Source of the DNA: Scytonema sp. UIC 10036
GTDB lineage: Bacteria; Cyanobacteriota; Cyanobacteriia; Cyanobacteriales; Nostocaceae
Direction of reading: 5' to 3'
NCBI RefSeq assembly: GCF_009725235.1
Contig: NZ_WJFC01000108.1
Coordinates: forward strand, 1-43,010
DNA: 43,010 bases
Part shown: piece after piece, positions 33,806 to 43,010 of the stretch
Layout of the letters: each line of letters starts with the position of its first letter
How positions within the stretch are numbered: the stretch's first letter is position 1
Position numbers and translations under genes: made by a program
Notes under the pieces: generated by a model
The model's input: the letters and a program-made list of their open reading frames with translations, nothing else
The model's database searches: none
What the model was told of the DNA's origin: nothing

Positions 33806-34140
33806 ATTTTAGATTTTGGATGCGTGGATGCGTGGATTTTGGATTAAAGCCAAAATCCTGTATCAATCTCTCGTTCCCAGGCGGAGCCGCCTATCTCGTT
33901 CCCAGGCGGAGCCTGGGAATGCCATCTTAGAGGCTCCGCCTCTGTCACCCATCCAACCCAAGCAAGCGAGCGGATTTCGTTGCTAGAAAAACCGCTCTCA
34001 ACACTTGGTTGACCGTTATTGGTTATGATAATTAGCTCTTCAATAAGAGGATATTTGTAGAGTTTACTTGTTATATTCAGATTCCCCTAACTCCCTTAAA
34101 TTGGAACCATGATAATTGTTACAGGTAACTGAAAGAAGGG
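33806..34140. repeat. Repeat-rich intergenic segment, with TCGTTCCCAG-family copy 4
   Basis: Starts with TTTTGGA- and TGCGTGGA-type units (33806-33845). The TCGTTCCCAG-family repeat at 33869-33943 has a duplicated left half (CTCGTTCCCAGGCGGAGCC appears twice) and the GAGGCTCCGCCTC palindrome. The rest to 34140 shows nothing recognisable. Confidence 0.85.
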
Positions 34141-34235
34141 AAAAAATATTTACTTAGCTCCAAAAAAAAGGAAAAAAATATTTACTTAGCTCCAAAAAAA
34201 AGAAAAAAAATATTTACTTAAGTCCAAAAAGAAAG
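34141..34235. repeat. Three A-rich 32-bp direct repeats
   Basis: The core TATTTACTTAGCTCC starts at 34147 and 34179, and again with two changes (TATTTACTTAAGTCC) at 34211, an exact 32-bp period. Long A-tracts separate the cores. 32 bp is close to three helical turns, so the sites face the same side and the A-tracts should bend the DNA. They lie just upstream of the promoter at 34246-34274. Whether they are regulator sites is inference. Confidence 0.9.
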
Positions 34236-34274: not shown

Positions 34275-34288
34275 TTAATTTAATTGGT

Positions 34289-34497
34289 AAAGAAGGCAGA
34301 AGTACGCTCGTCTGACGGCAGAAGGTTCCCCACGCGCTTATTGCGGGGGATTTAATAAAGTTACGGAGCATTTATTTGTCTCCATAACTAAGGTAGGGGG
34401 CGCTACACCATCTGAGGTGATGGCACAGAAGACTTATTTTTGTATTAAAAACTACAATATTCCTTCTGCCCCCCGCAGGAGCAAACGTGCCTTTCTT
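34289..34497 (+). ncRNA. Candidate structured RNA or cis-regulatory leader (~209 nt)
   Basis: A long closing helix in three blocks: AAAGAAGGCA (34289-34298) with TGCCTTTCTT (34488-34497), GCTC with GAGC plus CTG with CAG, and a perfect 9-bp GGCAGAAGG (34317-34325) with CCTTCTGCC (34462-34470). Inside, TTTAATA/TATTAAA can pair, and at least three hairpins form: CCCC..GGGG at ~34328-34348, AGTTA-GGAG/CTCC-TAACT at ~34359-34389, and CCATC/GATGG at ~34408-34422. The size and long closing stem recall 6S RNA, but the branched interior does not fit well, and I recognise no known class. It may be an independent RNA or the leader of the peptide gene 81 bp downstream. Strand is inferred from the promoter. 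Confidence 0.5.
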
Positions 34498-34577
34498 CTG
34501 GTAAAACTGCTGCTAAGCTAATTCAACTGTTGATGACTATTTAAGTTATAAAGTAGTATTTTTTGTGGGAGAAAAAA

Positions 34578-34886
34578 ATGGCAAGCATTGAAATTAATGA
34601 ATTGCGTCCTGCAGGCGCTGAACTGTTTCATGATTCTGAAAGCTTTCTTGATGAGCTAAGCGATAGGGAAGTTTGGGGTGGCGCAGCGAGCGCCTCTGCT
34701 CCTGCCACCTTAGGTGCGCTATTAAGTCCCACATTAGGAGATGGCAGCATAAATATAACGGGAGGAAACGGCAGCTTACCCATAGACATAACAGGAGGAC
34801 CTGGCAGCATACCTCTAACGGGATCTGACAGCATCGGTGACCTCTTCGGTAACACCCTCGGTATAGTTCCTGCACCTAGAAATTGA
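34578..34886 (+). CDS. Double-glycine leader peptide, putative secreted/RiPP-like precursor
   Basis: 102 residues from the ATG at 34578, with GGGAG six bases upstream. The N-terminus resembles leaders of cyanobacterial peptide precursors: INELRPAGAELFHDSESFLD, then ELSDREVWGG, with a double-glycine site at 34-35 where a C39-type exporter peptidase would cut. The 67-residue remainder is AASASAPAT followed by imperfect repeats (GDGSINITGG, NGSLPIDITGG, PGSIPLTGS), rich in Gly, Ser, Thr and Ile, with no Cys. No modification enzyme, peptidase or exporter gene lies in the window, so it would depend on trans-acting machinery, or act as a plain secreted repeat peptide. An upstream in-frame TTG (34563) is less likely. 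Confidence 0.72.
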   Translation: MASIEINELRPAGAELFHDSESFLDELSDREVWGGAASASAPATLGALLSPTLGDGSINITGGNGSLPIDITGGPGSIPLTGSDSIGDLFGNTLGIVPAPRN

Positions 34887-34899
34887 ATCCAGTAATGCC

Positions 34900-34965
34900 A
34901 AAACTCCGGTTTCTTTGTGTTTAACCAACGAGAACTCAAGCTTTCAGTGTAGAAACCGGGGTTTT
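34900..34965 (+). terminator. Perfect 15-bp stem-loop after the peptide gene
   Basis: AAAACTCCGGTTTCT (34900-34914) pairs with AGAAACCGGGGTTTT (34951-34965), with one G-U pair and a 36-nt loop. It begins 14 bp after the stop and ends in TTTTAG, so it could stop transcription or protect the 3' end. It resembles dispersed CCGGTTTC palindromes of cyanobacteria. Confidence 0.5.
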
Positions 34966-35163
34966 AGCCTTGACAAATCGCTCATTGTCTGAAATGTTCA
35001 TTCATAACAGGATGCCCAACAAGGCTTTCCTAAATCCAAAATAGAAACAATTCGCAAAAAAAGTCAAAGAAATGGATAAATGACGATCGTGGCATTTCTT
35101 TATTGGTAGTGAGAGAATACGTGTAAGTAAAAACCAAAGGCTTGATGGTACATTATCAACATC

Positions 35164-42780: not shown

Positions 42781-42965
42781 TGGTTAGTTGTTAGTAGATA
42801 GTTGTTAGTAGATAGTGGTGAACAACCAACAACTAACCAACAACCAACAACTAACCACCAACAACCAACAACTAACAACCAACAACCAACAACTAACAAC
42901 AAACAACAAACAACTAACAACAAACAACAAACAACAAACAACTAACAACTAACAACTAACAACTA
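42777..42965. repeat. Large 7-bp repeat array (GTTAGTA / AACAACC / AACAACT)n
   Basis: A short left arm of GGTTAGT/AGTAGAT units (42777-42820) faces about 140 bp of AACAACC, AACAACT and AACAAAC heptamers, the longest array in the window. The arms are partly inverse complements. Confidence 0.9.
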
Positions 42966-43010
42966 ACTAAACTGTAAAAAGACATACATTCTTAAAGAAA
43001 AAATTAAGCA

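Follow-up and report, generated by a model that had tools for sequence, protein, structure and literature searches.

A double-glycine-type peptide gene in Scytonema sp. UIC 10036, probably an orphan precursor of a cyanobacterial HopA1/APH-associated RiPP family

The question raised by this locus was what kind of peptide is encoded by a short reading frame that has the leader of an exported precursor but no processing genes beside it. In the window (the whole 43-kb stretch of DNA that was analysed), the frame started with ATG and comprised 102 codons plus a stop (Table 1), and the N-terminus of its product was MASIEINELRPAGAELFHDSESFLDELSDREVWGG. The first-pass annotation had described a DSESFLDEL leader of the bacteriocin or RiPP type and a repetitive core free of cysteine, and these features were confirmed in the frame. 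The leader was present, the protein had zero Cys in 102 residues, and the 67 residues past the first GG included 8 Ser and 6 Thr. At the protein level, the tandem repeat of the core gave two units of 11 residues each and an incomplete third. The protein search returned three homologues of the window protein, two of which belonged to Scytonema sp. UIC 10036 itself (77% and 74% identity over 98–99% of the length), and the other to S. hofmannii PCC 7110 (79% identity over 33% of the length). Furthermore, leader codons 1–33 were compared with those of eight relatives, and dN was 0.13–0.27 while dS was at least 1.2 in all eight comparisons, two of them saturated; each value was an average over both lineages, so a recent loss might postdate the signal. 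The leader dN was far below dS, so the frame has been under protein-level selection. Judged from the homologues and the leader dN/dS, the frame is a real gene, beyond chance.

Known domain models gave little further indication of the kind of peptide. Pfam assigned the window protein to no family, the bacteriocin models of Pfam and NCBIfam did not match it, and no NHLP or Nif11 (N11P) leader was matched in Pfam or NCBIfam at E values up to 10. A single NCBIfam line, YscP, scored 14.1 bits where the cut-off is 76.5, and was taken as a chance match. The AlphaFold models of four sequences had a mean pLDDT of 48.8.

Table 1. Features of the precursor gene and its immediate surroundings in the window.
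Feature	Position	Strand	Basis or remark
Dispersed repeat 5' of the precursor gene	34286..34504	.	81% identity with a single site of G195; partial matches in further genomes
GGGAG, Shine-Dalgarno-like, six bases 5' of the ATG	34567..34571	+	Sequence reading
Precursor ORF, 102 residues	34578..34886	+	Homologues; leader dN below dS
Leader, residues 1–38	34578..34691	+	Alignment with relatives; low-confidence helix, residues 6–32
GG, residues 34–35, out of the family register	34677..34682	+	Alignment, offset count, site model
Ala37-Ser38, position of the GG in the three closest relatives	34686..34691	+	Alignment, site model
Core by family register, without Cys	34692..34883	+	Alignment
33-bp tandem repeat in the core, 2.0 copies, 78% matches	34748..34813	+	DNA-level repeat
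Dispersed palindrome 3' of the gene, possibly a terminator	34890..34969	.	Similar copies elsewhere in related genomes

The leader proved to be that of a large family. A profile built from four sequences matched 73 proteins at E values up to 1. Genome contigs were also scanned, which gave 114 confirmed stretches; the top 80 were retained and corresponded to 76 loci, several of them sharing one genome; because the best stretches were kept, these loci lean toward close leaders. All 76 loci (best 80 of 114 stretches) carried cyanobacterial titles, and the leader pattern picked out 234 precursor ORFs in them, often in tandem. In one locus, L023, the leader pattern yielded zero precursors. When the ORFs of the loci were merged with the protein matches, at least 291 distinct precursors bearing the leader were obtained. 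In 600 random pairs from 92 non-redundant precursors, the mean identity of the leaders was 0.60, whereas that of the cores was 0.21 and that of shuffled cores was 0.19. The result answered a check proposed in the first-pass annotation: leaders are conserved and cores variable. Within the clade of the window gene the cores were alike, with an identity of 0.76 between the window core and that of each UIC 10036 protein (P0002 and P0003). Cysteine, in any number, occurred in just 13 of 285 family cores, and the description of the core as unlike lanthipeptide cores thus holds for the family as well.

In a sample of 118 genomes from a single family-level cyanobacterial group, 86 had the leader at E 1e-6, with at most 48 candidates scored per genome. 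HopA1 was present in 117 of the 118 genomes of the same group; being near universal, and present also where the leader was not found, it does not track the leader. The link between leader and HopA1 rests on gene neighbourhood. In addition, a plasmid search returned one record covering 31% of the query, AP018323.1, with a best match of 65.6% identity over 32 residues. This 42.6-kb plasmid of Nostoc sp. HK-01 had four sites of the same leader type. A phage origin of the window gene was also considered, and no match was obtained.

The neighbours of the relatives were examined by clustering ORFs of at least 90 aa at E 1e-20. Among the 76 loci (best 80 of 114 stretches), an APH/choline-kinase-like protein was encoded in 56 and a HopA1-domain protein in 55, the kinase being present in all 55. 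Rotamases were found in 48 of these loci, a cNMP-C39-ABC exporter in 41, HlyD in 40, and M16 peptidases in 29, while 16 loci had none of the six cassette families. Domain identities were checked on one representative per family. The kinase representative matched the NCBIfam model LxmK at 5e-23 with 81.7 bits, which was below the model cut-off of 315, and the HopA1 representative matched no NCBIfam model. The kinase motifs HND-K-NN and IDWE were kept in at least 96% of 54 sequences. Similarly, at least 96% of 53 lyase sequences had a Lys, an Arg, and a Tyr spaced like Lys219, Arg229, and Tyr236 described for CaoY (PMC9486802), with positions matched by spacing. The natural reading is that the kinase and the lyase would form a dehydratase working on the leader family. 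Another neighbour was an aldo/keto-reductase-like protein, encoded at L006:13269-14309 and in 16 other loci (best 80 of 114 stretches); the HopA1 gene preceded it in 17 of 17 loci, and a rotamase gene followed in 16 of 17. The Lys expected of active enzymes looks replaced in this protein, which may thus be a partner without catalytic activity.

The relatives were compared with known systems. Family 1A (Eyles et al. 2021, PMC8153245) was described as a group of 570 peptides from 183 clusters, occurring in Cyanobacteria alone. Its GG leader is conserved, its cores vary and share no conserved Ser, Thr, or Cys, and there are several precursors per cluster. Compared by description only, the relatives fit each feature given in that account, including the HopA1/phosphotransferase pair. 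The window copy shared the conserved leader and the variable, Cys-free core. However, its GG was at residues 34–35 instead of 37–38 as in the relatives, and the HopA1/phosphotransferase pair was absent from the 43 kb of the window, although present in 55 of the 76 loci (best 80 of 114 stretches). Owing to this difference in neighbours and the displaced GG, the window gene is described here as an orphan relative.

In class V lanthipeptides and thioamitides, a kinase and a HopA1 protein make up the dehydratase pair. The class V lanthipeptides cacaoidin, lexapeptide, and pristinin (PMC9486802, PMC7794033) have a kinase (LanK) and a HopA1-like lyase (LanY), and enzymes of these two types are encoded beside the precursors of the relatives. 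They were different in that their cores supply Cys for the thioether ring, whereas the window core has none and few family cores have any. Thioether rings are therefore not expected in most family members, and the name class V lanthipeptide is a poor fit; the cyanobacterial 'type-B' class V precursors were gathered for containing Cys (PMC9486802). The bacteriocin clusters of cyanobacteria (Wang et al. 2011, PMC3140520) share double-glycine leaders, C39-ABC, HlyD, rotamase, M16, several precursors, and variable cores with the loci studied here. They differ in their precursor classes, given as NHLP, N11P, HetP, DUF37, or other, and HopA1 does not figure in the part of that account compared here. 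A literature search with the leader letters returned nothing, and topical literature searches returned no characterised product of the leader family.

The isolation of the window gene was then considered. Members of the six cassette families had no tblastn match at E 1e-3 in the whole 43-kb window, in agreement with the first-pass annotation, which had noted no modification or export gene nearby and called the peptide an orphan. The term stands, but the isolation is unremarkable: among the 38 loci flanked by 8 kb or more in both directions (best 80 of 114 stretches), 8 had neither the kinase nor the HopA1 gene. Orphan precursors are a normal part of this leader family. The closest genome met (G195, taken to be PCC 7110) had P0004 letter for letter on its main contig. 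P0004, the closest relative with known surroundings, lay within a complete cassette near 8.84 Mb, and a second cassette was located near 9.45 Mb. Moreover, two precursors of the same genome, near 1.73 and 5.44 Mb, were separated by over 500 kb from each of its four HopA1 matches. With 26 C39-domain matches and 4 HopA1 matches in this close Scytonema genome, the earlier suggestion of shared machinery appears likely. HetC (from PMC10986499) was considered as the exporter and set aside, as nothing ties the leader to HetC in particular.

The UGDH-aroC neighbourhood was common to the window and G195, with protein identities of 98% and 99% and DNA identities of 89–94%. In G195 the UGDH-aroC interval was filled by some 6.6 kb of different sequence, in which the leader pattern found no precursor. 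The presence of other genes in the interval suggests a variable site. A further dispersed repeat was located near 33894-33942, in the same interval of the window. When the palindrome 3' of the gene was folded as RNA, its z value was −2.76, and 2 of 200 shuffles were as stable. A consensus terminator scan found no terminator-like site, and a promoter scan found 3 promoter-like sites against 2.5 expected. Several other features of these stretches were recorded. By eye, the G195 interval (L146) contained toxin-antitoxin-like, acetyltransferase, and methyltransferase ORFs. In the window, both the precursor gene and the dispersed repeat 5' of it were preceded by a 32-bp A-rich tandem repeat of 3.2 copies (34132-34235). 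Heptanucleotide tandem repeats were many in the intergenic stretches of the window, the longest being AACAACT, with 21.4 copies at 42821-42967.

The most unusual property of the window copy was the position of its GG. The leader ended in WGxxGG, with the GG at residues 37–38, in the three closest relatives, and in WGGAAS in the window protein. The first GG of the window protein was 9 residues past the LFxDSESFL block, the only such case among the 291 collected precursors; this GG is thus out of the register with the conserved leader positions that was looked for in a C39-processed double-glycine substrate. The first GG was at 10–13 residues in 265 of the 291 precursors and at 17–20 in 6. It was at 8 residues in 3, each of which had a second GG at 12, and 16 had no GG there, 14 of these having GA or GS instead. 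A site model was built from 91 non-redundant relatives, and it favours GG-type sites because its training sites were assigned by GG or G[AS]. The sites of the three closest relatives scored 22.7–29.2. For the window protein, the best position was after residue 38, between AAS and ASA, with a score of 9.1, and 12 of the 91 true sites scored lower. The second was a cut after residue 63, at the internal core GG 62–63, with 4.4, and a cut between WGG and AAS was outside the six best positions. The model prefers residue 38 in the window by register alone, and the score of 9.1 is by itself no proof of a site, since the best decoy elsewhere reached 17.2. The first-pass annotation had placed the cut at the visible GG; as this GG is out of register, a mature product starting with AASASAPAT is unsupported. 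The displaced GG of the window copy would have arisen either by mutation at the family site or through a short deletion that shifted it.

Leader family membership, the linked cassettes of the relatives, the motifs of the kinase and lyase, and the orphan location were all observed. With these, the window gene is probably a satellite of the cyanobacterial HopA1/APH-associated RiPP family, an orphan precursor modified in trans. An APH-like kinase and a HopA1-like lyase whose genes lie at other places in the genome would recognise its leader. Phosphorylation of core Ser and Thr by the kinase would be followed by elimination of the phosphate by the lyase, to give dehydroalanine or dehydrobutyrine. 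A C39-ABC exporter with HlyD would then remove the leader and export the product. Lanthionine is not expected within the window peptide, because it has no Cys, and the processing of this copy may be altered or lost, because its cutting site is displaced.

The displaced GG, unique among the 291 collected precursors, would also be compatible with a decaying satellite, copied from a cassette into a variable intergenic site, whose processing and export ended when the cutting site was lost. The dispersed repeats around the gene and the absence of a precursor from the syntenic site of the close Scytonema genome are in favour of such decay. Nevertheless, it is rather unlikely, as the frame is intact, residue 38 still scores above 12 of the 91 true sites, and the leader dN is low relative to dS, although this lineage average may predate a recent loss. 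The idea of the first-pass annotation, a secreted signal or structural peptide that stays unmodified and only borrows a C39 exporter, agrees with the lack of a cassette in the window, the 26 C39 matches of the related genome, and a core without Cys or an evident modification pattern, but it is improbable, since 55 of the 76 loci (best 80 of 114 stretches) have the same leader close to a kinase/HopA1 pair, which points to a modified peptide, and the GG on which the idea relied is out of register.

As a satellite precursor, the window gene is ordinary in kind, one member of a large and apparently uncharacterised cyanobacterial family of dehydratase-linked peptides. The detail of note is the spacing of its cutting site, which was unmatched among the 291 collected relatives. 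The leader family occurs in 86 of the 118 genomes sampled from one cyanobacterial group and is linked to a dehydratase/exporter cassette, yet its cores are almost free of Cys, and the literature searched holds no characterised product. Tentatively, it might be a distinct RiPP class, in which a class V-type dehydratase works on nearly Cys-free, hypervariable cores rich in Ser, Thr, Asn, and Gly, yielding exported products with many dehydro- (or later D-) amino acids and no thioether rings; satellites would extend the product range in trans and could evolve new processing sites. With orphan copies such as this one, mining anchored on clusters misses members of the family. Moreover, orphans with displaced cutting sites are a natural test of tolerance in leader recognition and C39 cutting.
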